Below are positions 1 to 15,327 of a stretch of 15,327 nucleotides of DNA, piece by piece. Source of the stretch: Candidatus Heimdallarchaeota archaeon. GTDB taxonomy: Archaea; Asgardarchaeota; Heimdallarchaeia; Hodarchaeales; LC-3. Both the position numbers and the translations under genes were made by a program. The notes under the pieces were generated by a model, which saw nothing but the letters and a program-made list of their open reading frames with translations, searched no databases and was not told where the DNA came from. Each line of letters starts with the position of its first letter. The first letter of the stretch is position 1. The stretch is taken from contig DAHXPE010000075.1 of assembly GCA_027364495.1 (NCBI GenBank), forward strand, positions 1-15,327. Reading direction: 5' to 3'.

Positions 1-67
1 ATCTTTCTTTGTATTTTTTTTTGTGAAATTTTAAAAATTCTTGCGTTATTTCTTCCAAAAGATAATT

Positions 68-727
68 ATGAACGTTTTACTAATCAATGGTACAAATCTT
101 CCTTTAAAGCACGAGATTATTGATTTTTTTGTCAATAGACCAATTATTGAATATGTAATATTGCTTGAAGGGAATAATATTATTACTCAACCCCTTTATC
201 CTAAGGTCAATTCAGGAGTAAATTCTAAGGTAAAAATAATTTTTGCGGATTTTTTAGCAAAAAAACAGATCTTCAATACTATTAAAGAACTATTTACTAA
301 TCTTAAAGAAGTACAATTGGTACTTTACGTTGATAATAGCTTGACGAATTTTGAAAAAGATTTCTATCAATTAGATATACTTGCTTTTAAAAATTTGATA
401 AATGCTGAGGTTGTTAAAAAAATTTTTGTCTTTCAGGCTCTTATTATAACTTTGAAACAGTATCAATTGAGCTCTCAATTTATCATCTTAGTACCTCATA
501 CTGCCCAAACACGACTAATCAACAATAATATCAAACAGAATGTTTTATTTTCGAGTCTTCATATGCTAACAACATCGTTTGCTGATGAATTTATTGATTA
601 CAATCTGTATTGTAATGGTGTAATTGATGATGAATATGTATTTAAAACCTTAGAATGGTTATTGTTTGAAAAAAAAGATAAAATCCAAGGTAAATTATTT
701 TCCAATAAACAAATTATCGAATGGTAA
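68..727 (+). CDS. Degenerate SDR-fold (Rossmann) protein, probably non-catalytic
   Basis: Function unknown. Numbered from the ATG at 68 (219 aa), the order of segments follows a short-chain dehydrogenase: a first beta strand with a glycine turn (VLLINGTN, 3-10), a third strand ending in Asp (VKIIFADF, 55-62), a fourth strand ending in DNS (LVLYVDNS, 84-91, where SDRs have NNAG), a fifth strand (FIILVPHTA, 138-146), then an SDR-like helix (LTTSFADEF, 167-175) and an 'IQGKLF' end resembling 'itGq'. The TGxxxGxG loop is not intact and no YxxxK occurs anywhere, so ordinary SDR catalysis is unlikely. A TTG nine codons upstream (41) is a possible longer start, but the ATG places the first strand at the N-terminus, as in SDRs. 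The gene converges on arginase with two bases between stop codons. Eight T's at 738-745 could end its transcript inside the arginase 3' end. Family assignment is from pattern only. Confidence 0.6.
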   Translation: MNVLLINGTNLPLKHEIIDFFVNRPIIEYVILLEGNNIITQPLYPKVNSGVNSKVKIIFADFLAKKQIFNTIKELFTNLKEVQLVLYVDNSLTNFEKDFYQLDILAFKNLINAEVVKKIFVFQALIITLKQYQLSSQFIILVPHTAQTRLINNNIKQNVLFSSLHMLTTSFADEFIDYNLYCNGVIDDEYVFKTLEWLLFEKKDKIQGKLFSNKQIIEW

Positions 728-729
728 AA

Positions 730-1653
730 TTATAATATTTTTTTTCCAAGTGCGGATCCTATTAATCCCACAGCAAGTTCAGCTGTGGTGTTTTTAAAAT
801 CCATTGTTGGGTTAACCTCTACCATTTCCATAGAAGTTAACTTTTCTGATTTATAAACCAATTCCATTAATAAATGAGCTTCACGATATGTTAAACCACC
901 AGGAACAGGAGTACCAGTTCCAGGTGCTTCTTTAGGATCTAATGCATCAATATCAAATGAAACATGTAGATAGTCAACATCTTGGGTAGCAATTTTTATT
1001 GCTTGACGAGCAACATTTGCAAAACTCATTTCATCAATATCTGACATGGTAAAAACATTTACACTTGATTGTTTTAATGTTTTTCCTTCTAAGGGATCAA
1101 TATCCCGTACACCAATTAGAACCGATCTATTTTCTATCAAATTTGGTGATGGACCAATGCCAGTAAGTCTAGGATCTCCTCTGTTCGTATGTACTGCAAA
1201 AGGCATTCCATGTATATTCCCAGAGGGTGTTGTAAGTGGAGTGTTAAAATCGGCATGAGCATCAACCCAGATAACACCTGTTTTAGCTTTAGTCATTCGT
1301 TGTAAGCCAGCCATGGTACCAATACTAATGCTATGGTCTCCACCTAAAACTAATGGAAAACATTGGTCATCTATAACTGTGCCAACACGACTTTTCAATA
1401 ATTTTGCAGTTTCAACAACATGCTCTAAATATCGTAATTTAGGATCATCTCCATATTCATTTTTAGATCTTATATTTTCTTCAAAATCATGACATTTGAC
1501 ATTACCATAATCATTGACAACGTAACCAAGGTGTTCTAATGTTTGTCTCAAACCGCCGATCCTAATAGCTGATGGCCCCATATCAACACCTCTTCTACTG
1601 GCTCCAAGATCTTGAGGTACACCTATAATACCTATTTTTTCCTTTTCTACCAT
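730..1653 (-). CDS. rocF: Arginase (ureohydrolase family)
   Basis: Hydrolyses L-arginine to ornithine and urea in the cytoplasm with a two-manganese centre. The 307-aa length is normal for the family. All expected metal ligands are visible: H107 in GGDHS, D131/H133/D135 in DAHAD, D234/D236 in SFDIDALDP. H148 in SGNIHGMP and E279 in EVNP match the catalytic and substrate-binding residues of arginases. The NTPLTTPSGNIHGMP loop and the N-terminal DLGASRRGVDMGPSAIR segment are those of bacterial RocF and eukaryotic arginases, not of agmatinases, which are the commoner ureohydrolases in archaea. The start is an ATG with a T/A-rich TATA-like stretch about 20 bases upstream and no Shine-Dalgarno site. 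It stands alone on its strand: no ornithine or urea pathway gene is adjacent. Formiminoglutamase or another ureohydrolase is less likely given the arginase-specific loop. Confidence 0.93.
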   Translation of the reverse strand: MVEKEKIGIIGVPQDLGASRRGVDMGPSAIRIGGLRQTLEHLGYVVNDYGNVKCHDFEENIRSKNEYGDDPKLRYLEHVVETAKLLKSRVGTVIDDQCFPLVLGGDHSISIGTMAGLQRMTKAKTGVIWVDAHADFNTPLTTPSGNIHGMPFAVHTNRGDPRLTGIGPSPNLIENRSVLIGVRDIDPLEGKTLKQSSVNVFTMSDIDEMSFANVARQAIKIATQDVDYLHVSFDIDALDPKEAPGTGTPVPGGLTYREAHLLMELVYKSEKLTSMEMVEVNPTMDFKNTTAELAVGLIGSALGKKIL

Positions 1654-2036
1654 AAATTAAACTCGGCTATAAAAATAAACTAATATTACATTTCTATTTT
1701 TTAAAAAAGACAAAGTTCACTATGTTAAATATATGAGCAGAAAATCATTTATTAAATTTTAGACAAACTCATAATCAAAATTTTTCTATTTCGATTACTC
1801 CTTTATAAATCTATAATACAGTGATAGAGTAATTCTATAGTGAATATAATTGCTAATTAGATTTTTATGAGCTTTCTAGTGAAAATATTATCTAACTGTC
1901 TGACAATACAAGATTTAAGGAAATTTATGTTTCTATTTATGATAAATTCTTTGTACTATGATTTAACTTAAAAAACTTAATTTTTTTCCTACACTAAAAA
2001 CCTCCATTGATGAAAATTTGATATGATGTTCTTATT
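1654..2036. other. 383-base A+T-rich intergenic region between divergent genes
   Basis: It separates the arginase (leftward) from the small membrane protein gene (rightward) and must hold both promoters. Visible structure is limited to the TATA-like stretch near 1670 and a 7-base inverted repeat (ATTACTC at 1794-1800, GAGTAAT at 1827-1833, 26 bases apart). I see no tRNA, repeat array or convincing open frame. Confidence 0.5.
1667..1680 (-). promoter_or_regulatory. Possible TATA box for arginase
   Basis: On the minus strand this reads GTTTATTTTTATAG, centred about 20 bases before the arginase ATG. That is roughly the archaeal TATA position for a leaderless or near-leaderless transcript. The surroundings are A+T-rich, so the match is weak evidence. 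Confidence 0.3.
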
Positions 2037-2537
2037 TTGGCTATAAATAGAAACCTTATTTTTCTTGAATCATTTTCTGTAATTCTTGTTATTTCTGTAT
2101 TTGGTAACGTCGAGGAATTTGTCAGGACACTTATATCAGACCATCCTAATAGTTATTTTATATATTTAATTGGATACGTGGTAATTGTTGCAATTGTCAT
2201 TTTTGGATTTTACAAAATTACTTATAGAACTCCCAGATATGAAAAGTTAATTAATAAGTCCCAACAACGCCAAACACTGCTTATTGATGGTTTGAAATCT
2301 AAAATTGATACAATTGACGAAAAAAAGAAAAAACAAGAAGAGAAAAAGCAAGCTAAATTACGTGAAAAAGTAGAAAATGTCCAAGAAAAAGAACAGGAAA
2401 AGGACCAAACTAGAGTCCAAAAAACAAAATCATCAATAGCAAAACCAGCTTCAACCTTTTCAACCTCAAGAAATTTAAAATCTTCGACGAATAGCAAATC
2501 TACTTCAAAATCAAAAACAGTTAGAAGAAGAAAATAA
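2037..2537 (+). CDS. Small two-helix membrane protein with charged coiled-coil and basic tail
   Basis: I do not recognise this 166-aa protein. Residues 7-24 and 41-60 are hydrophobic and long enough to span the membrane. Residues about 70-130 are dominated by Lys, Glu and Gln in a pattern suited to a coiled coil (IDTIDEKKKKQEEKKQAKLR). The last 35 residues are Ser/Thr/Lys-rich and end in VRRRK, so the tail is very basic, disordered and probably cytoplasmic. The start must be near here: an in-frame TGA lies at 2019 and TTG at 2037 is the first usual start codon after it. No Shine-Dalgarno site is visible. It lies 238 bases upstream of the haem-protein gene on the same strand, so a shared job is possible but unproven. 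The strong compositional pattern and intact frame argue for a real gene. Confidence 0.6.
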   Translation: MAINRNLIFLESFSVILVISVFGNVEEFVRTLISDHPNSYFIYLIGYVVIVAIVIFGFYKITYRTPRYEKLINKSQQRQTLLIDGLKSKIDTIDEKKKKQEEKKQAKLREKVENVQEKEQEKDQTRVQKTKSSIAKPASTFSTSRNLKSSTNSKSTSKSKTVRRRK

Positions 2538-2742
2538 ATGGTGAAACGACAAATGCTGATTAATGAAACTAATATTGATCATTTTTTTATAAACGAATTC
2601 TTTAAAATATATGTCGTACAAAATTAAATTTTAATAGAAGAAATTCAATTATGTCTAAAAATCGAAAAAAGTTCAATTTTTTATTCTATAAATAACGAAG
2701 ATCATTAAATAAAAATACATCCAAAATGTTTCCTAATTTGTC

Positions 2743-2752
2743 AAATAAATTT
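2743..2752 (+). promoter_or_regulatory. TATA-like box for the haem-protein gene
   Basis: AAATAAAT centred about 28 bases before the ATG at 2776 is where an archaeal TATA box would lie for a leaderless transcript. A short GTGAAG lies just before the ATG and could be a weak Shine-Dalgarno site instead. Supported by position only, in an A+T-rich setting. Confidence 0.35.
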
Positions 2753-2775
2753 TTTCTACCCTAATGTGAAGCTGT

Positions 2776-4203
2776 ATGATTTCAAAGAAATTAATTTTAA
2801 TTTTTGTGTATTTAACAATTATTTCATCCTTTCTAATGATTTCGATGGGTTCAAATAATAGCCTAACTGGTAATCAATCCTGTGATACGGTTGGCTGTCA
2901 TGATAGCCCATCATCAATTGGTCATGTCAGTTTTTCAGTGGTATTAACAGGTGCACAAACTGTACAGACTGGATCTGAAGCTACAATCACAGCAACTATC
3001 AAAAATAGCGGCTACCCATTAGATAGTGTTTCATTAACATTAGAATCATCTTCATATTATAGCCTTGCCGGTGGTTCACCTTCTATTAATGTAGGAAATG
3101 TAGCAAGAGGTGGTCAACAATCTGAATCTTGGAATTTAAACTTTCATGCATCATCTGATCAATCAGCAGTAGTAACTGTCGATTTTTCAGGCCAGGCTTA
3201 CGCCGCAAGCCATATGCAGTACACTTTTTCTGGTTCTCAATATACTTATTCAAAAAGCATTTATATTGTTACAACCCCAGTACCGATATTAAAGGTAGAT
3301 TCTAATCCATTGCCTGAAACAACCTTATTTGTCGGTTCATCAAATACATCTGGATTATTAACAATTCAAAATGCTGGAAAAATTGATATGACAAATGTAT
3401 CTGTTGTAACAAGTGGTCAAATTCTTGTTAATAATAAGACAAGTTTCGTTATAGCAAACATTCCTGCATTAAGTCAAATTTCTTTTCCAATTAAAATAGA
3501 TACATCTAAAACAGGTGCAGGTACAATCACAGTTACTTATATTGGAACTTTTAAGCAACAAACAGTAATAAATATTTATTTGAGACCAAATCCAGCAGAT
3601 TCTTTTACATTGTTCCTTGGAAGATTGTTTGGTTATATTGCCTACATTCTTTTGTTTCTTTCCGTAGTAGCTGGAGCGGGAATTTATCATTTGAAAAAAC
3701 ACATTTCAGGAAGGAAAATACGTATCTTACACTCAGATTTAGCCAATCTGAGTTTTACTATGGTTATTATTCACGCAATAGTGCTTACAATTCCAAATTC
3801 TCCATGGGCTAGTAATTATTTATTCTTTGAATTATTACCAGAACGTATTCCTACTGATATTGGAAGCTTAGGGCTTGCTTTAGGTAGATCAGCATTAGTA
3901 TTAATGTATATAAGCGTATTTTCCGGTTATTATCTAGCAAAATTAATCAAGCGGTATGGTAAACGTGTAGGTATATCAATTCATATGCTTAGTTATATAG
4001 CTTTAATATTTGGCTTTCTTCATACCATAATACTTGGTGGATGGGCTAGAGAATACCCTATTATCGGAGTAATCTTATTTGTTTCCATAATTTCAGTTGG
4101 TTTTCTAAAATTTGATGCCCAACGAATGCTAAACAAGAAAAAGAGAGAGTATCAGATGAGATTAGCTCAAAAAGCACTTAAAGCTGAAGAGGAACAAGCA
4201 TAA
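2776..4203 (+). CDS. Exported mono-haem c / beta-sandwich protein fused to a ferric-reductase-like bis-haem-b membrane domain
   Basis: Predicted transmembrane electron carrier, 475 aa. Order: a signal or anchor helix (5-24); a c-type haem site CDTVGCH (C36, C41, H42; spacing CX4CH) with H50 as possible distal ligand; two Ig-like beta-sandwich domains (about 52-165 and 170-270, CARDB/NEW3-like); then five membrane helices (about 283-303, 318-339, 363-388, 399-420, 426-444). H319 and H333 lie on one helix and H403 and H416 on another. The spacing HX13H and HX12H is that of the two haem-b sites of the NOX/ferric reductase family (PF01794 type). Loops 305-316 and 389-398 and the C-tail are rich in Lys/Arg, which puts them inside. 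H319/H403 would then bind the inner haem and H333/H416 the outer. There is no FAD/NAD(P)H domain, so the cytoplasmic partner is unknown. It sits 60 bases before the toroid gene and probably shares its transcript. Confidence 0.75.
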   Translation: MISKKLILIFVYLTIISSFLMISMGSNNSLTGNQSCDTVGCHDSPSSIGHVSFSVVLTGAQTVQTGSEATITATIKNSGYPLDSVSLTLESSSYYSLAGGSPSINVGNVARGGQQSESWNLNFHASSDQSAVVTVDFSGQAYAASHMQYTFSGSQYTYSKSIYIVTTPVPILKVDSNPLPETTLFVGSSNTSGLLTIQNAGKIDMTNVSVVTSGQILVNNKTSFVIANIPALSQISFPIKIDTSKTGAGTITVTYIGTFKQQTVINIYLRPNPADSFTLFLGRLFGYIAYILLFLSVVAGAGIYHLKKHISGRKIRILHSDLANLSFTMVIIHAIVLTIPNSPWASNYLFFELLPERIPTDIGSLGLALGRSALVLMYISVFSGYYLAKLIKRYGKRVGISIHMLSYIALIFGFLHTIILGGWAREYPIIGVILFVSIISVGFLKFDAQRMLNKKKREYQMRLAQKALKAEEEQA

Positions 4204-4263
4204 TTTAAGTATTAATATTTTAATTAAGGTAAATAAAATCAAAATTAAATCTGGAATATTGTC

Positions 4264-5742
4264 TTGGATCAAAAATCAATTTCTAAAAAAATCACTTACG
4301 TTATTTTAGCAATTTTATTATTGGAAGTCCTAGTCTTTGCAGGATGGTATTTTACTGAACCAACCTACAAAGCAACTGTACTTTCAATTGTTAAAGATCA
4401 TGAATCTCCAGATCAAAGTTATTTCTATACATCAACTACAAATCAAAACTTTTCTATTGATGCTATTTATAATGCACTCTCGATCTATTCTAGTTTGAAT
4501 CAATCTATGCCCAATAAGAATGTTATTACCTCTTCAATATTGGGATCCTACAACTTCTCAACAGGTTTGTTTTCAAAAAATAATGTCTCTTCTCTTGAAA
4601 CAACTTTTCAAGCTGTGTCAGCATTATCAATACTAGGCCAGGTAAACAAAATAAATAAGACAAAAACTATAGATTCTATATTAGCTCTTAGGACAACTGA
4701 TTCTTTATTTAGGGAGTATAATGAGTTTAATGATTCAAACCAGATTTTGGTTGGCGAATTAGATCATCTCTATCAAGGGTTAGCATCTTTACGGATTCTT
4801 TATCAAAATAACACTAAATTATTCTCTGATATAAATAGTACTAAAATGATAAAAAGTATTTTTTCTTTACAATCTGGAGATGGAGGTTTCTTAGAGGGTA
4901 TTTTATATAATACATCCAATATGAAAAATGCCTATTATTTAACTAAAATTTTTAGTTTACTGAACAATCCATTAAGTTATTACGAATCATTGGGATTCAG
5001 AGCATCAGATTTAGAGCAATGGATACAATCAATGTACACAAATAAAGGATTTAAGATGCAAGGCACATCAGAACCATCAGTTGAAGCAACTGCTTATGCT
5101 TTAATTACTCTACGATTTTTAGAAGCATCAACTCAATCTATTAAGGCAAACTATTCAGATGGAGTTAATAGCATAATGAATTTTTTGAGCACAAATTTTC
5201 TAAATGATCCAACTCGTAATTCATTGGACGTTCTGAATGATATTTTAAGTGCATTAAGTCAAATAAATCAATTAACAACGTTAAATAAAACTTATTTTAG
5301 CTTAACCGCTCAGTTTTATTTTGGAAGTATGTTTACAATAACAATCTTAGCATTTGTCATAAATATATTAATTAATTTATTTTTTGCTCTCAAAGAGGAT
5401 GATAACAAATATTTTGAAGGTAAATTACACATTGTAATACAAAAAATAATTGAAGGCAACGATCAAGACTTATTAGAGCTTTCATCATTATTAGGTGAGA
5501 CAATCAATACTATTGAAATAATACCAATTGAAAACGATGAAAAATTAGCTTTACTCAAAGCCAGTGCTAATAATGTTTTCTTTTTGATCTCATATGAAAC
5601 ATTTAATGGTCTTGCAAAGAAAATAGAAAAATATTCAAATCAGGATGATCTTTTGTCAGTCATTGACTTTTTAGAATCAGATATTTTCTTTACAATTGAT
5701 CAGGGTCGTTCACATTTAGTAGAGAACAAAATATCCGACTAA
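4264..5742 (+). CDS. Membrane-anchored alpha/alpha-toroid (prenyltransferase/squalene-cyclase-like) protein with cytoplasmic tail
   Basis: Precise function unknown; 492 aa. Helix 10-30 and helix 353-376 span the membrane. The region between (about 31-352) carries helical repeats of the terpenoid cyclase/protein prenyltransferase toroid type: SIFSLQSGDGGFLEG (198-212), a more worn SILALRTTDSLF (138-149), and WIQSMYTNKGF (253-263) followed by SVEATAYALITLRFL. The toroid is probably outside the cell: 11 N-X-S/T sequons (N62, 79, 97, 107, 131, 156, 182, 191, 216, 296, 341) all fall between the two helices, none in the 116-residue C-terminal tail. That tail is acidic, helical and unrecognised. No DxDD or zinc-ligand set marks it as an active cyclase or prenyltransferase, so a binding or scaffold role is more likely. 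TTG is the only usual start near the N-terminal helix. It follows the haem protein by 60 bases. Confidence 0.65.
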   Translation: MDQKSISKKITYVILAILLLEVLVFAGWYFTEPTYKATVLSIVKDHESPDQSYFYTSTTNQNFSIDAIYNALSIYSSLNQSMPNKNVITSSILGSYNFSTGLFSKNNVSSLETTFQAVSALSILGQVNKINKTKTIDSILALRTTDSLFREYNEFNDSNQILVGELDHLYQGLASLRILYQNNTKLFSDINSTKMIKSIFSLQSGDGGFLEGILYNTSNMKNAYYLTKIFSLLNNPLSYYESLGFRASDLEQWIQSMYTNKGFKMQGTSEPSVEATAYALITLRFLEASTQSIKANYSDGVNSIMNFLSTNFLNDPTRNSLDVLNDILSALSQINQLTTLNKTYFSLTAQFYFGSMFTITILAFVINILINLFFALKEDDNKYFEGKLHIVIQKIIEGNDQDLLELSSLLGETINTIEIIPIENDEKLALLKASANNVFFLISYETFNGLAKKIEKYSNQDDLLSVIDFLESDIFFTIDQGRSHLVENKISD

Positions 5743-5930
5743 AAAGTTAAAAAATACTTCATCCTTAATACATGAACTAAAATCAATAACTTACAAATTT
5801 GGGATGTAATGAGTGAAATTTTATTATTATCCCTGACTTTCTTTTTTGCATTGTAAATAATAGTTAAGAATTGAAGGGAATTTTTTTAAACATTGAATAA
5901 TACATTTTTAGATAAAGAAGATTGATTAAA

Positions 5931-6761
5931 ATGATAGTAGGAGCAGCAATAGCACCGCATGGAAGTTTGATTTTACCTGTATCAAGTACTGGTGATTCCA
6001 AAGCTAGTAAAATACATCAATCAATGGAAATACTAGCAGAACATATTCAATCGCTCAAACCAGATATAATATTCCTTTCAACTCCTCATGGTATTGCATT
6101 GGAAACGGATTTTGGAATATATAAGAATGAAAATGCCTATGGGACCGCTGAATGGAAAAATGATTATAAAGAGTTTACCTCTTCCCTATTTTTAGATGTT
6201 AAAGTAGCATCTTCCTTACTGCAAAATTTACAGACAAAATCACATAAGATTCAAGGCATAACAACCTATTCAGCTTTAGAGCCAATTCCATTACGCTGGG
6301 GTGAAGTCGTACCAACCTGGTTCTTGCGAAATATTAAAGCAAAATATATTATTTTAACACAACCAAGCAGAAGGATAAACCATGCTTTAGACATGATATC
6401 CGAGCTTGAAAAATTAGGCCAAGATGCCGGATCTTTTTTTAATTCGATTAATGAACGAGTTTTTATTCTTATAAGTGCAGATATGGCTCATACCTATCAA
6501 GAAGATGGACCTTATGGAATTCATCCATCAGCTCAACCATTCGACGATGAGGTTGAAAAATGGGCTAAAACTTTGAATAGAAAATATCTAATTGAGGGAG
6601 CAGGACCAATGCTCTACACAGCATTAGCCTGTGGTTATACAGGATTTGTACTGGTGGATGCATTAATGAGATCCTTAAAAATCAAAGTCAAGTCAGAGGT
6701 CCTTTGTAATCTCCACCCAACATATTATGGTATGATGGTAGTGAAATTTGCATTTTCCTAA
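5931..6761 (+). CDS. LigB-fold protein, class III extradiol dioxygenase-like
   Basis: Numbered from ATG 5931 (276 aa). The protein has the LigB/extradiol class III layout: an N-terminal strand ending in APHG (H10), a second histidine in STPHG (H53), WGEVVPTWFL (123-132, matching the family's 'G..VPL..L' segment), and a SADMAHT motif (H187) where the family has its catalytic histidine. H10 and H53 are the likely metal ligands; the third acidic ligand may be in FDDEVE (204-209) but I cannot place it surely. Related archaeal proteins occur alone or joined to AMMECR1 domains, and the related Memo family shares the fold. No aromatic-degradation gene is near, so ring cleavage of a specific substrate is not supported. 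A TTG three codons earlier is possible. The gene stands alone between the toroid and thioredoxin-V4R genes. Confidence 0.75.
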   Translation: MIVGAAIAPHGSLILPVSSTGDSKASKIHQSMEILAEHIQSLKPDIIFLSTPHGIALETDFGIYKNENAYGTAEWKNDYKEFTSSLFLDVKVASSLLQNLQTKSHKIQGITTYSALEPIPLRWGEVVPTWFLRNIKAKYIILTQPSRRINHALDMISELEKLGQDAGSFFNSINERVFILISADMAHTYQEDGPYGIHPSAQPFDDEVEKWAKTLNRKYLIEGAGPMLYTALACGYTGFVLVDALMRSLKIKVKSEVLCNLHPTYYGMMVVKFAFS

Positions 6762-6773
6762 ACTTTTTTCTAA

Positions 6774-6797
6774 AAATATATATCCAATTATATATTT
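6774..6797 (+). terminator. A+T-only inverted repeat after the LigB gene, possible terminator
   Basis: AAATATATA (6774-6782) and TATATATTT (6789-6797) are perfect reverse complements with a six-base loop. They start 13 bases after the stop codon and follow a T-run (6764-6769). Archaeal termination mostly needs the T-run. The stem is weak because it has no G-C pairs, and it could instead be TATA-like promoter sequence for the next gene. Confidence 0.3.
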
Positions 6798-6918
6798 AGT
6801 ACATTTCAGCTAGTTTTTAAACAAATAATTAATCAACGATTTGGAATTTTACTAATAAAAATTTTAAAAATAATGAAGAATTCCTCTTGGTACTGAACCT
6901 TGAGAAGAATGTTGATCT

Positions 6919-8532
6919 ATGACTGAGAGTATAAGCAAAGTAACTATAATTCTGTTTGAAAATGCGGTTTGTCCTCCTTGCAAAACCGTAGAGCCTATTT
7001 TACGGCAGATTGTAACATCTAGTACTGGATCAGCTTCGTTAACCATTATAGATATTGATAAAGAAAAAGATTTAGCAAATAAATACAATATCAATGGAAT
7101 TCCTGCCGTTTATTTTAATGATAAATTAGTACTTTCAGCACACCAAGCAGTTATGTTAATGAGCGGTTCTGGTTCAGTTGATGAAAATCCGTTTTCTTTA
7201 CTTAATGCTGATGAAAAAAACGTTGGTTTTACAGATATTTTCGGAAATGGACAATCAGGACTTTTCAATCACCTTTTTAATCAATTAATTTCATCTTCAA
7301 TTGATTCAAATGCTGAAATGCTGGAAAGGAGATTGAAATTTAATATGTTGGCTATTTCTCAGAAAACTATGACACCAGAGGCTTTTCAAAATATAACTAG
7401 ACCTGCTTTAGGTGATTATGTTCATATTGGTATTCTCCAATCTATTGTCACATCTATTTTAGCTATTAACCCCAGATCAAGTGAATATTTGTATAAAGTT
7501 GGAAGGGATATGGGAAGATTTGGAAATGTCCAATTTCAATTTTTACGACATTACCCCCAAATATATGAACATTTTGAAACAGCTGATAAATTCCGTGTTC
7601 TTTTAGACGGTTTACAGGAACTTTACAGCGCTTATAGCTTAGGATTTCCTCTCTTTATTGCATCAAGATCTTTGATAAATCATATAAATGAAAAAACAGC
7701 AAAATTGACTGTATATGATTCAGCGTATTGTGCTCAAATAAGTCCAATAGGTCAGCCAGTGTGTTATCTTATAGCAGGTGAGATAGCTGGTCTGATTGAA
7801 AGCACCTTAGGTGAACAAGTATCTGTTGTTGAAACCAAATGTTTTGGTTTAGGAGATCCTTTTTGTCAATTCCAAATTGAGCTTGATAAAGAAAGAGATT
7901 TTTCATTTATAAGCGAGAGAAATTTCCTTTCCGAACCGGAAAAGGAAAGATTTCAACAATGTCTTTTAACTATATCAAAAAATATGTATTATAGTTCATT
8001 AATTAGAAATATTTTGCGACCTGGACTTTCAGATCATGTACATATTTCTGTGCTTCAACAAACGTTAAATGGGATAAAATTCAGTGATCCATTTTTTAGT
8101 ACTCTTTTATTTTATGCTGGATTACACTATGGGAAATATGGTGTTGATTATGCAATAATAGAACGAATTGTAGAAGAAAAAGAGTCAATTGTTTATCCTA
8201 TGGAATTTTCCAAAAGTTTAGAGTTACTGACAGCTTTCTTTAATGATCCAGCTACTATTTTAACGCGCTGGCAAGGGAATGCTGAATTAGAAATTATAAA
8301 TAATGAAACAGCCTATATCAATATCTACGAATCAGCAAATGCATCTGGTCTAAATATGAAAAGTCCTGATTTTATTTTAGATGTTGACGTTGAGACAACC
8401 TTGTGTGATTTTACTGCTGGTTTTATACAAGGTAGATTATCAAAATTGAGTTCAGAAACTATTCAAGTAACTGAAGAAACTTGCTTAAGTGTTGGCTCTG
8501 AATTTTGTCGATTTAAAATAACGCTTAATTAG
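6919..8532 (+). CDS. Thioredoxin-fold domain fused to two V4R domains
   Basis: Predicted cytoplasmic redox or ligand sensor, 537 aa. Residues 1-80 are a thioredoxin fold with CPPC (C18, C21) at the start of helix 1 and the cis-proline segment GIPAVYF (P62). A linker to about 135 is followed by two V4R (4-vinyl-reductase) domains, about 140-322 and 345-537. They are clearly duplicates: RPALGDYVHIGILQ (161-174) matches RPGLSDHVHISVLQ (367-380), and both end in the V4R signature CFGLGDPFCQF (308-318) and CLSVGSEFCRF (522-532). The first copy also has C271 and C282; the second keeps only C496 of that set, so the copies may have diverged in metal or ligand binding. V4R domains bind small hydrophobic ligands in XylR/DmpR regulators and share a fold with TRAPP Bet3 proteins. 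No DNA-binding domain is seen. The gene converges on the GH1 gene. Confidence 0.85.
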   Translation: MTESISKVTIILFENAVCPPCKTVEPILRQIVTSSTGSASLTIIDIDKEKDLANKYNINGIPAVYFNDKLVLSAHQAVMLMSGSGSVDENPFSLLNADEKNVGFTDIFGNGQSGLFNHLFNQLISSSIDSNAEMLERRLKFNMLAISQKTMTPEAFQNITRPALGDYVHIGILQSIVTSILAINPRSSEYLYKVGRDMGRFGNVQFQFLRHYPQIYEHFETADKFRVLLDGLQELYSAYSLGFPLFIASRSLINHINEKTAKLTVYDSAYCAQISPIGQPVCYLIAGEIAGLIESTLGEQVSVVETKCFGLGDPFCQFQIELDKERDFSFISERNFLSEPEKERFQQCLLTISKNMYYSSLIRNILRPGLSDHVHISVLQQTLNGIKFSDPFFSTLLFYAGLHYGKYGVDYAIIERIVEEKESIVYPMEFSKSLELLTAFFNDPATILTRWQGNAELEIINNETAYINIYESANASGLNMKSPDFILDVDVETTLCDFTAGFIQGRLSKLSSETIQVTEETCLSVGSEFCRFKITLN

Positions 8533-8571
8533 ACCGTTTCATAAAGTTGAACATATAACCTTGGCCTTGTT

Positions 8572-8589
8572 AAAAAAAAAAAAAAAAAA
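8572..8589 (-). terminator. 18-base A/T homopolymer; T-run terminator of the glycosidase operon
   Basis: Eighteen consecutive A's on the plus strand read as T18 on the minus strand, starting two bases after the GH1 stop codon. A run of U's at the transcript end is the known signal for archaeal termination. The exact length may be a sequencing or assembly approximation. Confidence 0.55.
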
Positions 8590-8591
8590 TT

Positions 8592-9914
8592 TTAAAGATT
8601 TAAAGGTTTAATAGGCCAATCAAGGTATTTTTGAATAATTTCTGATGAGATTGAATTAGATTTAGCAATTCGTGAATACAGTTCAGCACTTCCACGTTTG
8701 CTTCGTTTTTGAGTGTTAAAATCGACTTCATAAAGTCCAAATCTTGATGAATAACCTTCAGCCCATTCAAAATTATCCATCAATGTCCATTCAAAGAATC
8801 CTTTAACATTAACGCCTTCTTGAATAGCTTGATAGACCTTCATTAAGTGATGAATAAGATATCTTTGACGCCAATTATCATTATTCGTTCCAATGCCATT
8901 CTCCGTTATATATACAGGAATTCCAGGAAATTCCTTATTGATCCTTCGGAGGTTAAAGAGTAAACCATCAGGATAAGGCTCCCAGCCTAAACCCTCACAG
9001 AGGTACTGTTTATCTGTATCTGGACGTGCAACTATATTCAAATCTGGAAGTTTTTGACTGACCAATGCAAAATTGTAATAATTTAATCCAATAAAATCAA
9101 AAGAACGTTTAATAAATTTTTTTGATCGTAATAAATTTGTATATAGCTTTCCAGTCCTTAAAGCACGAAAGATAACTCCATTCATAGAATAATCGACAAA
9201 TTTGGCAGAAATTCTATCCTTTCGAGATTTTTTATTATAAGGAATGGTGTAAACCATATTCTTGACTAAACCAACTTTCGAATCAGGTTGAAAATTTTTT
9301 ATTATTCGGTAGGTTTTACCATGGAGTATTAATAAGGTGTTTAAAGCCTTTATTGACTTAAGAAGACTTTTTTCACCTGGTGGGAAATTACCAAGAAAAT
9401 AGGCTGAAGTTGCAAGGATTTCAGGTTCATTAATGGTATTCCAAAATTGAATTTTCTCTGAAAATTCTTTTACCAAGGTTTCTACAAAGAATTCAAAATG
9501 TTTAAGATGATTAGATTTTTTGTTAAGTAAAGAGCCTTCTGCGTTCCACCAAATAGGTTCAGAAAAATGAAGTATAGTAATAAAAGGAGTAATATTTCGT
9601 TTGATAAGACTATCAATCATTTTATGATAGTGTTCTAAAGCATCTTGATCAATTTTATTTGGTTCTGGGATTACTCTACTCCATTCAACCGACATTCGAT
9701 AAGCATTATTATTTAATTCATTTATAAGATTAAAATCTTGTTCATATTTATCCCAATGTTGACATGCCTGTTCAGAGGTGTTTCCATTTTTAATTTTACC
9801 AGGAATTTGTTCCCATTGCCACCATTGGTTATTTTTATTACCGCCCTCAATTTGATGAGCCGCAGTAGCTGTTCCCCATAAAAATTCTGGTGGGAAATTT
9901 AAATTAGTATCCAT
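8592..9914 (-). CDS. GH1 family beta-glycosidase (beta-glucosidase/beta-galactosidase type)
   Basis: Retaining exo-glycosidase that removes a beta-linked sugar from oligosaccharides; cytoplasmic, no signal peptide. Numbered from ATG 9914 (440 aa, normal for GH1): N-terminal FLWGTATAAHQIEGG signature (11-25), acid/base E163 in NTINEPE, nucleophile E338 in YITENG, sugar-binding Q21, H116, N162, Y279 in GLNYY, and the C-terminal WTLMDNFEWAEGYSSRFGL (376-394). The frame stays open 27 codons further upstream, but that part would run into the GH57 gene and lacks family similarity, while GH1 proteins start just before FLWG. The start lies five bases after the GH57 stop, so the two are co-transcribed. 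Neighbouring GalK and GalT favour galactosides as substrates, but glucosides cannot be excluded from sequence. Confidence 0.92.
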   Translation of the reverse strand: MDTNLNFPPEFLWGTATAAHQIEGGNKNNQWWQWEQIPGKIKNGNTSEQACQHWDKYEQDFNLINELNNNAYRMSVEWSRVIPEPNKIDQDALEHYHKMIDSLIKRNITPFITILHFSEPIWWNAEGSLLNKKSNHLKHFEFFVETLVKEFSEKIQFWNTINEPEILATSAYFLGNFPPGEKSLLKSIKALNTLLILHGKTYRIIKNFQPDSKVGLVKNMVYTIPYNKKSRKDRISAKFVDYSMNGVIFRALRTGKLYTNLLRSKKFIKRSFDFIGLNYYNFALVSQKLPDLNIVARPDTDKQYLCEGLGWEPYPDGLLFNLRRINKEFPGIPVYITENGIGTNNDNWRQRYLIHHLMKVYQAIQEGVNVKGFFEWTLMDNFEWAEGYSSRFGLYEVDFNTQKRSKRGSAELYSRIAKSNSISSEIIQKYLDWPIKPLNL

Positions 9915-9919
9915 GTCGC

Positions 9920-11125
9920 CTAAACACCAAGTTCTTTGTAAATTTGTTGTAAAGCTGTATAAGCTTCTAATTTTCGTTCTGGAAGAGGTCCCCATCCTCG
10001 TGCATCAGAGTTTTCAGCTATTCTTAACAATGGCTCAATCTTAGTCATTATTTCTGTATTCCATTTTCTTTGGCTTAATTCTGAGTAGATATAATGTAAT
10101 TCTCTCATTAATTCTCTATTATCTTCACTATCAGTCCAAATACTGAATGATTTATTCTCTGACCAAGAACCTGCACTTATAAAAGAAGGTTCAACTTTCC
10201 ATTCATCTTTTGAAAGGGAACTGGGAGTAATTGTTTGTATATCTATCTTCTGAAGTTTTTTTAGAAAATTAATAAGTAATTGTGGCTGAGGAATTTTACC
10301 TCCGAATTCACGATAGCCAAAAAATTCAATGTCGCTGGTATAAATCGGTAAAAATTGATTTTGACTCTTTTTAATTAGGTCAATATGTTTTGATTCTTTG
10401 TATAGACTTGTCGTCTTACTAATTGCGAATCTAGTGGAATTCCACCAGCTTTGACTACTAATGACAGCATTGATGCTCTTGGTAGAATTCAAATTTACCT
10501 TTTCTAGTGAATTTTTTAGTGACAAGTTTAATCTTACCAAGTATCTTAACGCTTTAGTATAATTATGAATTGTTGCAATTGGGTTTTTTGAAAAGTAGGC
10601 ATCTGCCAATATCTCAGTAGAACTTAGTTTTCTTTTTTCAAAGGGGTTTGCAACATTTGTGAGCATTTGAGACTGCAAAAGGTGCTCATGATCAATGGTA
10701 ACCCAATCATAACCAAAATCTTTGATATATTGGAGAACTAAAGGTGTGATAGCTAATTCAGGAGGCCAAAAACCATTCAAATGAACTGGAAATGTTTTTT
10801 CCAGTAACGTACGTTGATCAAGAATTTGTTTTTTAATTCTCATTGGATTGAGTATTGGTAAAATAGGATGGGAGTAACCTGTTCCTAATAATTCTATTAT
10901 GTGAGATTTAAGAAGACTTTTGAGCATATCAATGGTTTCTGGGTTATGATTAAGTAAATATTCAATCGTGTGACCAGTTATATTACAACAAATCGTTCCT
11001 TCAAAATCTTCAAGAGCTGAAAGCATTGTATTATATGAAGAAGCAACTACCTTAGGCAATTCACTTCTTGGAATTTCAGCGTAATCAGTATTCCAATGGA
11101 GAATTACATAAACTGATTTGTTCAC
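9920..11125 (-). CDS. Short GH57 family glycoside hydrolase, possibly an alpha-galactosidase
   Basis: Retaining alpha-glycosidase of family GH57, 401 aa, no signal peptide. GH57 landmarks appear in order: region 1 at ILHWNTD (8-14, H10), region 2 at CNITGHTIEYL (47-57), ELLGTGYSHPILP (78-90), region 3 FWPPELA with presumed nucleophile E123, and region 4 YTSDIEFFGYRE with presumed acid/base D265. The C-terminal part has the family's SW...FSIW and ENSDARGW segments. Most GH57 amylases and glucanotransferases exceed 600 residues. The short length and the position beside galK and galT resemble the Pyrococcus alpha-galactosidase GalA, itself a short GH57 enzyme next to galactokinase. That activity is inference; a short alpha-amylase or unknown specificity is the alternative. 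The ATG overlaps the MFS stop codon (ATGA, 11122-11125), a sign of translational coupling, and the stop lies five bases before GH1. Confidence 0.85.
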   Translation of the reverse strand: MNKSVYVILHWNTDYAEIPRSELPKVVASSYNTMLSALEDFEGTICCNITGHTIEYLLNHNPETIDMLKSLLKSHIIELLGTGYSHPILPILNPMRIKKQILDQRTLLEKTFPVHLNGFWPPELAITPLVLQYIKDFGYDWVTIDHEHLLQSQMLTNVANPFEKRKLSSTEILADAYFSKNPIATIHNYTKALRYLVRLNLSLKNSLEKVNLNSTKSINAVISSQSWWNSTRFAISKTTSLYKESKHIDLIKKSQNQFLPIYTSDIEFFGYREFGGKIPQPQLLINFLKKLQKIDIQTITPSSLSKDEWKVEPSFISAGSWSENKSFSIWTDSEDNRELMRELHYIYSELSQRKWNTEIMTKIEPLLRIAENSDARGWGPLPERKLEAYTALQQIYKELGV

Positions 11126-12561
11126 TGATTTCCCTGCAAAGTTTCTAATTCATTTTTTCGAGATTTCAAAACAAGGCCAATTCTTTGTTTATCAGATGGA
11201 TAAGTGAAATATACAAAGAAATAGATAAATAGACAAAAAAGCCAAGGTACAACCGTTGCAATTAGCATTGCATTTGCTAAAGCATTAATATTCGTAGTTC
11301 GAATAGTTTGGCTTAATTGATTGATTGCAATACCTGGAGCGGGAGTATAATAATTAAAGAAATTTACAGCTAACCAACCGACAATTAAAGTACCACTAGC
11401 AGCAAATGCGCCTTCAAAGAATCTGTCAATTGAAAAAGCCGTGCTTCGAATTTCAGGTTCAAAAAGTTCAGCAAAGATAGGGCTGTTACAGGCAGTTGCT
11501 GCCCAAGAAATTAACATTCCTGTTATAAAGCCTATGACTATATAGGCTAACAACATATCCGTGTTTCTAGGTAAAAACCAAAAGATAATGAACATCATGG
11601 GTATGCCACTAAAAACGGAGATTTGTGCCACAATCAATCTTCCTTTTTCAGGGTTCCACCGTGCAGCTTTATCACCAAGCACTCCTCCTAGTAAGTTACC
11701 TAATGCAGCTCCCATAGCAATAACAGCAAATGAGATAGCCGCTAATGGGGCTGATAATCCGATATATTGGAACCAATCAATGATAAATAAAATACTGGAC
11801 CAAGGGATTAAACCAGCCATACCTTGTAAAACAATAAGATCAAAAGACTTATTAGACAAAATCTTTTTGACATCAGAACGTGAAATTTTGTATTTTTTCT
11901 CAGTTGATTCATTGATCAAGCCTTTGAGTTGTTCTTCTGAATAACCTCTCAAGGGGTCCTTACCAAAAATATGAATGAGAAATCCCAGAACAAAACTTAC
12001 AAGAGCCATAGTAGCAAATGCCACTCGCCAACCCTGTATACCAAAAATAAGAGAATCAGATATACTAGTTGCATAAATAGTTCCAATAACTGAACCAATA
12101 ATTCCAGTTAAGCCAAGTAAACCAAATGCTCTTCCACGGGAATTATCAGGATAATAATCGGCTAACAAACTACTAGCAGTGGGGTATAAAACTGCGAGAC
12201 CAATACCCGAAAGTGCACGAGAAATAAGCATGGTTTCAAAAGAAGAAGAAAAGGCAACTAGCAAAGTAAAAATAGCCCAAATATAACAACCAAAGGCTAA
12301 CAATGTTTTTCTGCTAAATTTATCGCCATAATATCCCCAGACAGGATTTGTAACGCTTTGTAAAAGTGATCTTATAGCGGTAATTAACCCTAATTGGACT
12401 GGATTAAAACCTAAATCACGTTCAAGAGAGTTATAAACGGCAGGAAGTAATTGAACATCTGCCTGATCAATGATATTCGCTGTGTTGATAAGAGCAACTG
12501 AATTTTTTCGATCATGGCTAAAATTCTTTGATGTTTTATTTTCGGACATAATTATCAGCAT
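11122..12561 (-). CDS. MFS transporter, probably for galactosides or other sugars
   Basis: Twelve-helix major facilitator permease, 479 aa. Motif A is clear after the second helix (GYYGDKFSRK, 76-85), with a worn copy in the second half (GGVLGDKAARWNPEKGR, 292-308). Helices are visible at about 55-75, 86-104, 110-133, 147-167, 178-199, 240-262, 272-294, 309-329, 336-356, 380-402 and 428-453, with a charged central loop (201-235). The N-terminal LLPAVYNSLERDLGF resembles Spinster-like MFS members. Its place directly before two intracellular glycosidases suggests it imports their oligosaccharide substrates, but specificity cannot be read from the sequence. Start uncertain: ATG at 12561 or ATG four codons later (12549); neither has a Shine-Dalgarno site. 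First gene of the MFS-GH57-GH1 unit, with its own TATA box. Confidence 0.88.
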   Translation of the reverse strand: MLIIMSENKTSKNFSHDRKNSVALINTANIIDQADVQLLPAVYNSLERDLGFNPVQLGLITAIRSLLQSVTNPVWGYYGDKFSRKTLLAFGCYIWAIFTLLVAFSSSFETMLISRALSGIGLAVLYPTASSLLADYYPDNSRGRAFGLLGLTGIIGSVIGTIYATSISDSLIFGIQGWRVAFATMALVSFVLGFLIHIFGKDPLRGYSEEQLKGLINESTEKKYKISRSDVKKILSNKSFDLIVLQGMAGLIPWSSILFIIDWFQYIGLSAPLAAISFAVIAMGAALGNLLGGVLGDKAARWNPEKGRLIVAQISVFSGIPMMFIIFWFLPRNTDMLLAYIVIGFITGMLISWAATACNSPIFAELFEPEIRSTAFSIDRFFEGAFAASGTLIVGWLAVNFFNYYTPAPGIAINQLSQTIRTTNINALANAMLIATVVPWLFCLFIYFFVYFTYPSDKQRIGLVLKSRKNELETLQGNQ

Positions 12562-12618
12562 TAAAGTTCCAATAAATTTGAAAATTATTTTTACATTTCG
12601 ATTAAAATGAGTTGTTAC

Positions 12619-12627
12619 TTATATAAA
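12619..12627 (-). promoter_or_regulatory. TATA box of the MFS-GH57-GH1 operon
   Basis: On the minus strand this reads TTTATATAA, a near-ideal archaeal TATA box, in the 88-base gap between galK and the transporter. Transcription would start near 12597, giving a leader of about 35-45 bases. It implies the three-gene unit can be transcribed separately from galK. Confidence 0.5.
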
Positions 12628-12649
12628 TCACGTAGTAAAATTGCTTTTT

Positions 12650-13840
12650 TTAATTGAATAAGTACATAATTTCGTGAGGGACGTCGTCTTTCGACAAAGA
12701 AGAGATTTCAGTACCATTGGATGAATTGAATTGAAAAATTGTTGTTTTTTCTTTAAATGAATTCAAAAACCATTCTTGTAATTTTTTAATAATCTCATCC
12801 TGTCTTACTTCATCAACTAAAAGTAATATTGATCCACCAAATCCACCTCCCATCATTCTAGCACCATACACTCCTAAAGATTCTAATTGTCTTGAATATT
12901 CAACAATTTGATCAGCTCGGTTCCAAGAAGCTTCAAAATTTTCTTTCAAACTTGTATGTGAGTCATACAAAAGAGCACCTAACTTTTTTACAACCGTAGG
13001 ATCCTTGCTACCATTAACAGACTGTAAAATAGAAAAAAATTCTTTTACTCGAGCATTTTCAGTCAAAACATGCTTTACTCTTAAAGAAAATGGCTTATTG
13101 ATCTTAGTCTCAATTTCATTGAAATCTTTGATCGAAAGCTCGCTTAACGAAGTAATTTTAAAGCCTAAATCTTGGATTTTCTTAAGTGCAATAGAACATT
13201 CATTAATTCTGGTATTATAAGGAGAATCGATTAATGTATGCCTGATTAATGTATCTAAGATAAGTAAAGATACATTGTCCGGTAATGATGTCTTTTCGTA
13301 TGATAAATCAGCACAATTTAATTTGAGAACATTATCAATTTCTCCAAAACGTACAATAAATTGATCCATTATGCCACAACTTACCCCAACATAGGAATTT
13401 TCGACAGACCAGCATTGTTTAACAACATCAATTGGATTAGTCTTGTGATTATATAATTGATCAAGAAGGGTAAAAAGACCAACCTCAAGAGCTGCTGAGC
13501 TACTAAGACCAATGCCTTGTGGAAGATTGGAAGTAATAGCTATGGTACAACCAAAAAAAATGGAGTAAAGTTCAACATAGGATTTAAAAATTCCAATAGC
13601 ATAAGTCAGCCAATGATCCTTTTCAGGAATATAAGATGAAATTTCATCTAAATTAATTATAAATTTTTCCTTGTAATTTTCGGAATAAACTACAATTTTC
13701 TGATCTTCACGCAAAGATCCAAATATGGTTATTTTGGCATTAATAGAGATTGGCATTACCAAACCAAGCTCATGATCTGTGTGTTCACCAATTAAATTAA
13801 TACGACCAGCAGTTTGAATCTTGGAAATCATTTTATTCAA
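12650..13840 (-). CDS. galK: Galactokinase (GHMP kinase family)
   Basis: Phosphorylates galactose at C1 with ATP, first kinase step of the Leloir pathway, in the cytoplasm. Numbered from TTG 13840 (396 aa, normal length): galactokinase signature GRINLIGEHTDH (12-23), GHMP phosphate loop PQGIGLSSSAALE (107-119), catalytic Asp in GIMDQF (D159), and C-terminal motif ARMMGGGFGGS (327-337). The signature has His where most members have Tyr (HTDY), a mild deviation that leaves galactose versus N-acetylgalactosamine preference slightly open. Start: TTG at 13840 with GTGAG five bases upstream, or ATG three codons later (13831), which also fits the family N-terminus. It has its own TATA-like box and is followed after 88 bases by the transporter. 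The divergent galT strongly supports the assignment. Confidence 0.93.
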   Translation of the reverse strand: MNKMISKIQTAGRINLIGEHTDHELGLVMPISINAKITIFGSLREDQKIVVYSENYKEKFIINLDEISSYIPEKDHWLTYAIGIFKSYVELYSIFFGCTIAITSNLPQGIGLSSSAALEVGLFTLLDQLYNHKTNPIDVVKQCWSVENSYVGVSCGIMDQFIVRFGEIDNVLKLNCADLSYEKTSLPDNVSLLILDTLIRHTLIDSPYNTRINECSIALKKIQDLGFKITSLSELSIKDFNEIETKINKPFSLRVKHVLTENARVKEFFSILQSVNGSKDPTVVKKLGALLYDSHTSLKENFEASWNRADQIVEYSRQLESLGVYGARMMGGGFGGSILLLVDEVRQDEIIKKLQEWFLNSFKEKTTIFQFNSSNGTEISSLSKDDVPHEIMYLFN

Positions 13841-13872
13841 AATTTCTCACATTTTAGATCAATATTGTTATT

Positions 13873-13882
13873 GGTATATATG
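13873..13882 (-). promoter_or_regulatory. TATA-like box for galK
   Basis: Minus strand reads CATATATACC, centred about 38 bases before the TTG start and 47 before the ATG. A transcript starting near 13852 would have a short leader holding the GTGAG sequence (13846-13850), a possible Shine-Dalgarno site for the TTG start. Confidence 0.4.
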
Positions 13883-13929
13883 ATAGTAAGTAATGTCTAG
13901 TTACAAAATTGCTTATTGCACTGAAGGAA

Positions 13930-13966
13930 CCTCGTCAAAGGATTTAAACTAAACACCTTTAGGAGG
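13930..13966. other. Imperfect hairpin upstream of galK
   Basis: CCTC (13930-13933) pairs with GAGG (13963-13966), and AAAGG (13937-13941) with CCTTT (13956-13960), leaving a small internal loop and a 14-base A/T loop. It is the most G+C-rich patch of this gap. It lies just upstream of the galK promoter and downstream of the small minus-strand frame at 13975-14226, so it could be an operator, an RNA structure or chance. Confidence 0.25.
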
Positions 13967-13974
13967 AACCGCCA

Positions 13975-14226
13975 TCATCTAAACGATTGGATGTTTAATC
14001 CAACGAATTCTAATTGAATGAAGGAAAAGGATAAAAAAATTATATCAATTGGTATATGGTGAATTTTAATAATAATTAACTTATTTAAGAGACTAACAAG
14101 AGCATCAACAACTAAAACAATGGAACTAAAAATGAAAACCAGAGCAAATAGTAAAAAATAAACACTTTTAGATTTAATATAATAATTAATGAATATTGGA
14201 ACCGAAAAGGAGCTAATAAGGCTCAT
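13975..14226 (-). CDS. Possible small two-helix membrane protein
   Basis: Weakly supported 83-aa frame. Residues about 21-48 are strongly hydrophobic (YFLLFALVFIFSSIVLVV inside) and residues about 50-72 form a second, weaker hydrophobic stretch; there is no known motif. In favour: an ATG start, TTTAAA about 22 bases upstream as in leaderless archaeal genes, and the AGGT in the same interval. Against: frames rich in Ile, Leu and Phe arise easily by chance in such A+T-rich DNA. If it is not real, the 562 bases between galK and galT (13841-14402) hold only promoters and the hairpin at 13930. Confidence 0.3.
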   Translation of the reverse strand: MSLISSFSVPIFINYYIKSKSVYFLLFALVFIFSSIVLVVDALVSLLNKLIIIKIHHIPIDIIFLSFSFIQLEFVGLNIQSFR

Positions 14227-14340
14227 TTATACCTAACCTTTGATTTAAAGTTATGTAATCCAATATTTCAACTCATAGTATTATTTAATATTTTTTATGT
14301 TATTTATCAACTTATTTTTATGTAATTTTTTACTGATATG

Positions 14341-14373
14341 AGGGGAGGATTTTAAAAATTATTGATATTTATT
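14341..14373 (+). promoter_or_regulatory. Probable galT promoter region with purine tract
   Basis: AGGGGAGGA (14341-14349) runs straight into TTTTAAAAATT (14350-14360), followed by GATATTTATT (14364-14373). Either A/T stretch could be the TATA box, giving a leader of roughly 8-22 bases before the galT ATG. The purine tract is too far (over 50 bases) to be a ribosome binding site for galT. It may be a BRE-like or regulator-binding element. Confidence 0.35.
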
Positions 14374-14402
14374 TCCTTTTAGATTTCATAATGATGATTT
14401 AA

Positions 14403-15327
14403 ATGGCTGAAATTAGAATAGATCCATTAACAGGAGAATTTATAATTGTTAATGACAAAAGAATGGAACGACCAGTAATAACTTCTCAATTAAAATCATC
14501 GCCTGAATGTCCATTTTGTGCAAACTCATCCAAAAGGCATCCAGGCTTACCTTTTGAATATGAATCCATTTCTGTTGAAAATTTATATCCATCTTTAGTA
14601 TTAAAACCAGATCAGACTGATAAAAACATTTCTGAACTAAGAAAAGGAAATATTAATAAATCGATGCCAAATATGGGAAAATGTGAAGTATTGTTATATT
14701 CATCAGATCATAATTTAGAATTTTATAATCAATCAAAGATATTAACAACAAAGATCATGAAATTGTGGAAAGAAAGAGTTCTTGAATTACAAAAAAACAC
14801 AGAAATAAAATATATTTTCATTTTCGAGAATCGAGGTTCAGCAGTTGGAGTAACTATATTACATCCACATGGTCAATTGTACGCTTTACCCTTTATTCCT
14901 CCTATTGTAAAAAAAATGCTGAAAAATCATAAGAAATTTTATTCTAGAAATAAAGAATGCCTTATGTGCTCAATTATAGAAAATGAAAAGACTGATGGGA
15001 AAAGAATGATACTAGAAAATAAATATTTCATTGCTTTTGTACCTTATTCAGCAAAATTGTTATTTGAAGTTCAAATTGTACCTACTACCCATCATGAAAC
15101 GATTGTTGAACTACAAGATGAAGAATTAGAAGCTTTTGGATCAATTATACAAGCTATAAGAAAAAAATATGACTTGCTTTTCAAAAATAAAAAAGCATCT
15201 TTTATGATGATGCTGTATAACGCACCAGTGAATACAGAAAAGAAAAATATTTTTCATTTTTATTTACAATTTGTCTGTTTAGATAGGGATGACAATAATT
15301 TCAAGTATAGAGCAAGTGCGGAAACTG
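14403..15327 (+). CDS. galT: Galactose-1-phosphate uridylyltransferase, 3' end outside window
   Basis: Transfers UMP from UDP-glucose to galactose-1-phosphate (Leloir pathway, cytoplasm). I translated 308 codons without a stop; the gene runs off the window. Seen in order: start MAEIRIDPLTGEFIIV; zinc-type pair ECPFC (C36, C39); SSDHN with H103 at the position of the E. coli third zinc ligand; FENRGSAVGVTILHPHGQ (141-158) with H154 as fourth ligand and H156 as the catalytic, uridylylated histidine; a second Cys pair CLMC (C186, C189); SFMMMLYNAP (266-275) and FHFYLQF (284-290) matching the family's C-terminal strands, where the usual HFH is here HFY. Start: ATG with no Shine-Dalgarno site close by. 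It is divergent from galK about 560 bases away. An archaeal or bacterial GalT usually has about 320-350 residues, so perhaps 20-40 are missing. Confidence 0.93.
   Translation, partial: MAEIRIDPLTGEFIIVNDKRMERPVITSQLKSSPECPFCANSSKRHPGLPFEYESISVENLYPSLVLKPDQTDKNISELRKGNINKSMPNMGKCEVLLYSSDHNLEFYNQSKILTTKIMKLWKERVLELQKNTEIKYIFIFENRGSAVGVTILHPHGQLYALPFIPPIVKKMLKNHKKFYSRNKECLMCSIIENEKTDGKRMILENKYFIAFVPYSAKLLFEVQIVPTTHHETIVELQDEELEAFGSIIQAIRKKYDLLFKNKKASFMMMLYNAPVNTEKKNIFHFYLQFVCLDRDDNNFKYRASAET

Follow-up and report, generated by a model that had tools for sequence, protein, structure and literature searches.

Transmembrane electron transfer by stacked b haems is typified by the ferric reductase domain (FRD) superfamily, in which the haem histidines form pairs in the third and fifth transmembrane helices (TM3 and TM5), as with H101/H115 and H209/H222 of NOX2 (PMC3591440). 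FRDs are known as fusions to Fer2, Rieske, DOMON and peroxidase-like modules, and most bacterial members are the membrane domain alone; in the majority of these short forms two or three histidines are retained, in a few all four (PMC3591440). The MsrQ branch has an arginine in place of the first histidine (PMC3591440), and MsrQ-like proteins with FMN-binding partners have been described (PMC8238504). Here we analyse a 15,327-nucleotide stretch of a Candidatus Heimdallarchaeota genome (assembly GCA_027364495.1, contig DAHXPE010000075.1, positions 1–15,327; hereafter the window), one gene of which, at 2776–4203 on the forward (+) strand (the strand of all its features given below), encodes a 475-residue protein that comprises an N-terminal hydrophobic helix, an outer haem-c-type site, two β-sandwiches, an FRD-like membrane domain and a short basic tail. 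We favour, on balance, the view that this protein is a single-chain transmembrane electron conduit, leading from an inner donor via two b haems to an outer haem c.

Four conserved histidines and the sidedness of the membrane domain

An earlier note on this DNA, drawn up from the letters alone, had delimited the open reading frame (ORF) correctly and placed all seven motif residues where we find them. It had also remarked that the membrane part contains two histidine pairs, H319/H333 (HX13H) and H403/H416 (HX12H), with spacing equal to that of the NOX2 pairs. Shuffling the membrane part 200,000 times produced such an arrangement (HX13H, then HX12H more than 20 residues on) in 576 cases, and we would regard the conservation of the histidines as stronger evidence than these shuffle statistics. 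Across an alignment of 25 rows (the window copy and 24 relatives), H319, H333 and H416 are invariant and H403 is present in 24; the homologue survey that the note had called for therefore finds the four histidines, together with the two cysteines and the histidine (C/C/H) of the outer motif, retained apart from H403 in a single relative (P0008). There an aspartate takes its place and nearby residues also deviate from the other rows; P0008 may have lost the inner haem. The pairs, at spacings of 14 and 13, correspond to the four-histidine pattern of the FRD superfamily, with the TM3/TM5 numbering conditional on retention of the N-terminal helix.

Conservation is concentrated around these residues. 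Comparing 12 stretches in the 16 rows that have the full N-terminal helix, we observe the highest mean pairwise identity (0.82) in the basic inner loop plus H319/H333 and the second highest (0.71) in the second inner loop plus H403/H416, with the first and second sandwiches at 0.42 and 0.48. The inner loops, which the earlier note had recognized as rich in Lys/Arg, average 5.0 and 4.6 such residues and 0.0 Asp/Glu; because they are basic without acidic residues, H319 and H403 should lie inside and H333 and H416 outside. A conserved face of this kind beside the inner haem would fit an electron-donor docking site.

The membrane part begins with an out-to-in helix (residues 276–306, 3601–3693; TM2 if the N-terminal helix is retained), assigned from the structure model and hydropathy. 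This leads into the basic inner loop and the helix bearing H319 (3730–3732) and H333 (3772–3774), which together span 3694–3789 and, by conservation and alignment to MsrQ, correspond to TM3 in FRD numbering. Two further helices rest on model and hydropathy, namely TM4 (residues 362–394, 3859–3957) and the last, TM6 (residues 428–447, 4057–4116); between them lies the TM5 equivalent (3979–4035) with H403 (3982–3984) and H416 (4021–4023), placed on the same grounds as TM3.

An N-terminal helix (residues 4–25, 2785–2850) is present in the model and in hydropathy (peak 2.47). The earlier note had taken it for a signal helix; its existence is borne out, but it may instead be retained as the first of six. 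The helix is full-length, as called, in 16 of the 25 rows, where its mean pairwise identity is 0.41 against 0.42 for the first sandwich. Values this close do not decide between a cleaved signal and a retained helix, and the idea of conservation beyond signal-peptide level was dropped. With the helix retained there would be six, TM3 and TM5 would bear the histidine pairs as they do in NOX2, and the ectodomain would form an insertion in the TM1–TM2 loop. Besides the fragment P0010, eight relatives lack the full helix (P0006, P0012, P0013, P0014, P0018, P0020, P0021 and P0023), often beginning right ahead of the C/C/H motif. Among the eight, P0013, P0018 and P0021 lie on contigs of 8.7–11.2 kb. 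The starts of all eight are perhaps miscalled.

The outer site is conserved in residues and variable in spacing

The outer site is a haem-c-type attachment motif, C36-X4-C41-H42 (2881–2901), its cysteines being the sole two of the protein, and was found as the earlier note had it. When the residues of the protein were shuffled 100,000 times, the pattern C.{2,4}CH arose in 31 cases; no other of the 12 window ORFs examined contains it. Every one of the 24 rows that cover the site (P0010 starts downstream of it) keeps C/C/H as one motif. What does not generalize is the CX4CH spacing itself, a minority form confined to the window copy, P0002 and P0004 (3/24), with CX2CH in the other 21; any special meaning for it was accordingly rejected. 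CX3CH and CX4CH count as haem c motifs alongside CXXCH (PMC5566968, PMC10734462), and haem c maturation exists in archaea (PMC9084895). All 24 rows display the exported C-X2..4-C-H pattern of a c-type cytochrome, with export suggested by the N-terminal helix and the charge distribution. Two histidines, H50 (2923–2925) and, as an alternative, H146 (3211–3213), are candidates for the second axial ligand, each being present in 24 of the 24 rows that cover it.

The same five residues would suffice to bind a metal, and it is conceivable, if rather improbable, that the di-haem b conduit is real and the outer site holds zinc, iron or copper. The protein would then be a plain transmembrane reductase whose ectodomain senses or delivers metal. 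That the motif is single and that haem c maturation machinery is undemonstrated in the host speak for this; the shift between CX2CH and CX4CH while C/C/H is retained, the acceptance of the longer spacings as haem c motifs and the predicted location of the site on the side of haem c assembly speak against it.

Two β-sandwiches separate the motif from the membrane. The full-length structure model (pLDDT, the predicted local distance difference test score, 70.1) consists of these sandwiches and helices, the haem c region being modelled without confidence (pLDDT < 50 for residues 20–49), and its first 50 matches in the PDB are mostly multi-domain β-sandwich proteins such as integrins and transglutaminases. 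The first sandwich (about residues 51–165, 2926–3270), delineated by model strands, resembles choice-of-anchor-V and CARDB domains at scores below the family cut-offs. The choice-of-anchor V family NF041895 matches residues 28–135, motif included, with E 7.3e-5 and 22.9 bits against a curated cut-off of 42, and reaches E ≤ 0.1 in 18 of the 25 rows (best 7.3e-5); members of that family presumably carry CxxCH as well. The CARDB match is weak (16.7 bits, cut-off 22.7). A Nostoc CARDB protein encoded beside an FRD gene was seen and set aside. Model strands (block pLDDT 72–94) and the whole-model matches define the second sandwich (about residues 170–270, 3283–3585).

A proposed electron path without a fused flavin domain

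The protein ends in a basic cytosolic tail (4117–4203), which occupies the place of the flavin domain in NOX and FRE proteins. With just ~28 residues beyond the last hydrophobic stretch, no flavin domain is fused, as the earlier note had stated, and NOX proper, with its FAD/NADPH domains, was rejected as an identification. Nor does a flavin family appear among the 25 most matched families listed for the 25 rows, which measure at most 557 residues. A double zinc ribbon is matched (E ≤ 0.1) by 12 of the 25 rows, the window copy being without such a match. A four-histidine FRD-like domain lacking a flavin domain is unusual but not unknown, since few short forms keep four histidines.

We propose that a separate donor, whether a quinol in the membrane or a soluble flavoprotein, would dock at the inner face, which is basic and strongly conserved. 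Electrons would then enter an inner b haem held between H319 and H403 of the FRD-like helical bundle and pass to an outer b haem between H333 and H416, stacked with the first. From there they would reach one covalent haem c at C36/C41/H42, whose second ligand would be either H50 or H146 and which the two β-sandwich domains would carry. They would exit to an acceptor outside, for example Fe(III), another cell acting as partner or a redox protein. The earlier note had put forward much the same path, and conservation, the lack of a fused flavin domain, charge sidedness and remote FRD likeness bear out part of it; haem binding, the second ligand, the donor, the acceptor and the outward direction we infer.

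Nothing in the sequence fixes direction, and electrons might conversely run from an extracellular donor through haem c and the b haems to quinone or a cytosolic acceptor, a course for which the argued bidirectionality of CbcL/MtrH/MtoC homologues (PMC6295460) offers a precedent. We consider it improbable, in that the electrons carried by NOX and FRE proteins start from NADPH in the cytosol and end on acceptors outside (PMC3591440), and the reductase that MsrQ serves is periplasmic (PMC8238504).

Family placement of the membrane domain

The relationship of the membrane part to FRDs is remote. A search against PF01794, as suggested in the earlier note, gave the window copy 12.8 bits (E 0.13), below the cut-off of 28, while 7 of the 25 rows matched at E ≤ 0.1 (best 0.0024); as the Pfam gathering score is not reached, we call the domain FRD-like and do not file it as a member. 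Profile comparison with MsrQ-type FRDs brings three of the four histidines into register, H333 aligning with H91 of E. coli MsrQ and H403 and H416 with its H151 and H164, at a score that 0 of 100 shuffled profiles reached. The best structural neighbours are bacterial NOX proteins, SpNOX first, and STEAP, from a weak model.

Membership of a different family of di-haem b proteins, be it cytochrome b561 or the cytochrome b of either bc1/b6f or fumarate reductase, with the histidine spacing reached by convergence, is unlikely. Cytochrome b561 was tried as the membrane fold and rejected, its profile giving E 0.11 with a score within that of shuffles, and the four Pfam matches that the window copy has at E ≤ 1 include no cytochrome b family. 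The histidine helices of bc-type cytochrome b, moreover, cross the membrane in the opposite direction. No HydC/FdnI-like family is among those Pfam matches either, and no profile comparison to such families was made. That the domain is a degenerate anchor of a surface β-sandwich protein, transferring no electrons and keeping its histidines for other reasons, we regard as very improbable; the aspartate of P0008 and the lack of a clear redox partner in the window speak for it, and histidine helices and inner loops that are better conserved than any other of the 12 stretches compared speak against it.

Distribution and gene neighbourhood

Protein and profile searches returned an identical set of 24 relatives. 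Each protein search scored no more than the 7995–7996 candidates with most shared words, which may have left remoter relatives out. P0011, which is 49–50% identical to the window protein, has the source name Candidatus Thorarchaeota and is classified in Promethearchaeati, the Asgard group. Searching with a profile of the membrane part alone recovered P0010 again plus P0025, P0026 and P0027 (257, 150 and 101 residues), which stand outside the 25-row counts and are probably fragments (longest contigs 961, 1332 and 1027 bases). One PDB sequence search gave two matches at E 2.1 and 6.8 and another gave seven at E of at least 0.44, none to the membrane part. No relative was found in genome contigs (16 and 55 pattern-matching stretches; contigs below 3 kb lie outside that set, so rarity is not implied), in viral contigs (29 pattern-matching stretches) or in plasmids (tblastn, E ≤ 1, with the membrane part and the N-terminal domain as queries).

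A Pfam scan of 11 of the 14 ORFs listed in the window revealed no clear flavoprotein or further cytochrome. Sixty bases downstream, 4264–5742 (+) encodes a prenyltransferase-type α–α toroid (PF00432, E 8.9e-17) with hydrophobic stretches at the N-terminus and further on; it is a possible operon partner. The product of 5922–6761 (+) is LigB/MEMO-like (PF02900, E 1e-7), with AmmeMemoRadiSam B and FAD_binding_7 matches below cut-off, and that of 6919–8532 (+) combines a CPPC-bearing thioredoxin-like domain with two V4R stretches after it; weakly MsvR-like, it appears to be a sensor of redox state or of a ligand. On the opposite strand, 8592–13840 (−) holds a GH1 glycosidase, a GH57-type protein, an MFS transporter and a GHMP/galactokinase-like kinase, a probable sugar-use cluster. 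Scanning 2500–6000 for promoter-like and terminator-like elements gave no signal (25 against 21.7 expected and 2 against 1.2 expected, respectively).

Comparison with known electron-transfer systems

A narrower proposition, which we put forward tentatively, is that this is an Asgard lineage-specific electron-export protein, with a NOX-type four-histidine channel, a flavin domain lost or never possessed and a haem-c ectodomain in the TM1–TM2 loop. Few surface electron-transfer proteins are, to our knowledge, known in Asgard archaea. Some Asgard lineages are predicted to depend on syntrophic partners (PMC9723726). If the proposed conduit is real, it would amount to a one-protein, three-haem route from cytosol to surface in kin of the archaeal ancestor of eukaryotes, and would show a NOX/FRE-type haem pair working with an outer c haem and without a fused flavin domain; as a single gene it would make a simple candidate for surface electron transfer, testable by expression.

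Long FRDs (NOX, FRE and SpNOX) share with the window protein the two two-histidine helices and, by prediction, the inner and outer haem and the sidedness; NOX and FRE differ in that they carry an FAD/NAD(P)H domain, where the window protein has an outer haem-c-type ectodomain. An outer β-sandwich on a membrane di-haem b domain is, we take it, also the plan of the eukaryotic CYBDOM/FRRS1 proteins (DOMON or Reeler with cytochrome b561), which presumably differ in having cytochrome b561 instead of an FRD and no haem c. The short FRDs MsrQ/YedZ are, like the window protein, without a fused flavin domain. These replace the first TM3 histidine by arginine (R77 in 8 of 8 MsrQ-type sequences aligned, against H319 in all 25 rows here), have no ectodomain and work with a separate molybdoenzyme, YedY/MsrP.

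Resemblance of another kind is offered by the quinol:cytochrome c oxidoreductases CbcL/MtrH/MtoC, in which an exported c-haem part is likewise fused to a membrane part predicted to hold two b haems, whose working the path proposed here follows in outline, and which a 2018 survey found in Bacteria only (PMC6295460). CbcL has nine CX2CH motifs, its homologues 3–23, joined to a membrane part of HydC/FdnI type (PMC6295460). Here all 24 rows that cover the site have a single motif, and the membrane part is FRD-like; the CbcL type is defined by at least three CX2CH. Mco of anaerobic methanotrophic (ANME) archaea likewise pairs an archaeal cytochrome b with outer c haems, but as a separate VhtC-type cytochrome b and a protein of 7–11 haems (PMC9012536), not as one chain with one haem c. 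Among the matches listed in literature searches on Asgard/Thorarchaeota cytochromes and on FRD/haem proteins, titles and abstract openings describe no such fusion, and the main text of PMC3591440 does not contain the term "cytochrome c", though its architecture figure could still include such a module. Flavin-less FRDs and fusions of b-haem and c-haem parts such as CbcL are thus already known; their combination in one chain, as read from the sequence, appears from these searches to be new.
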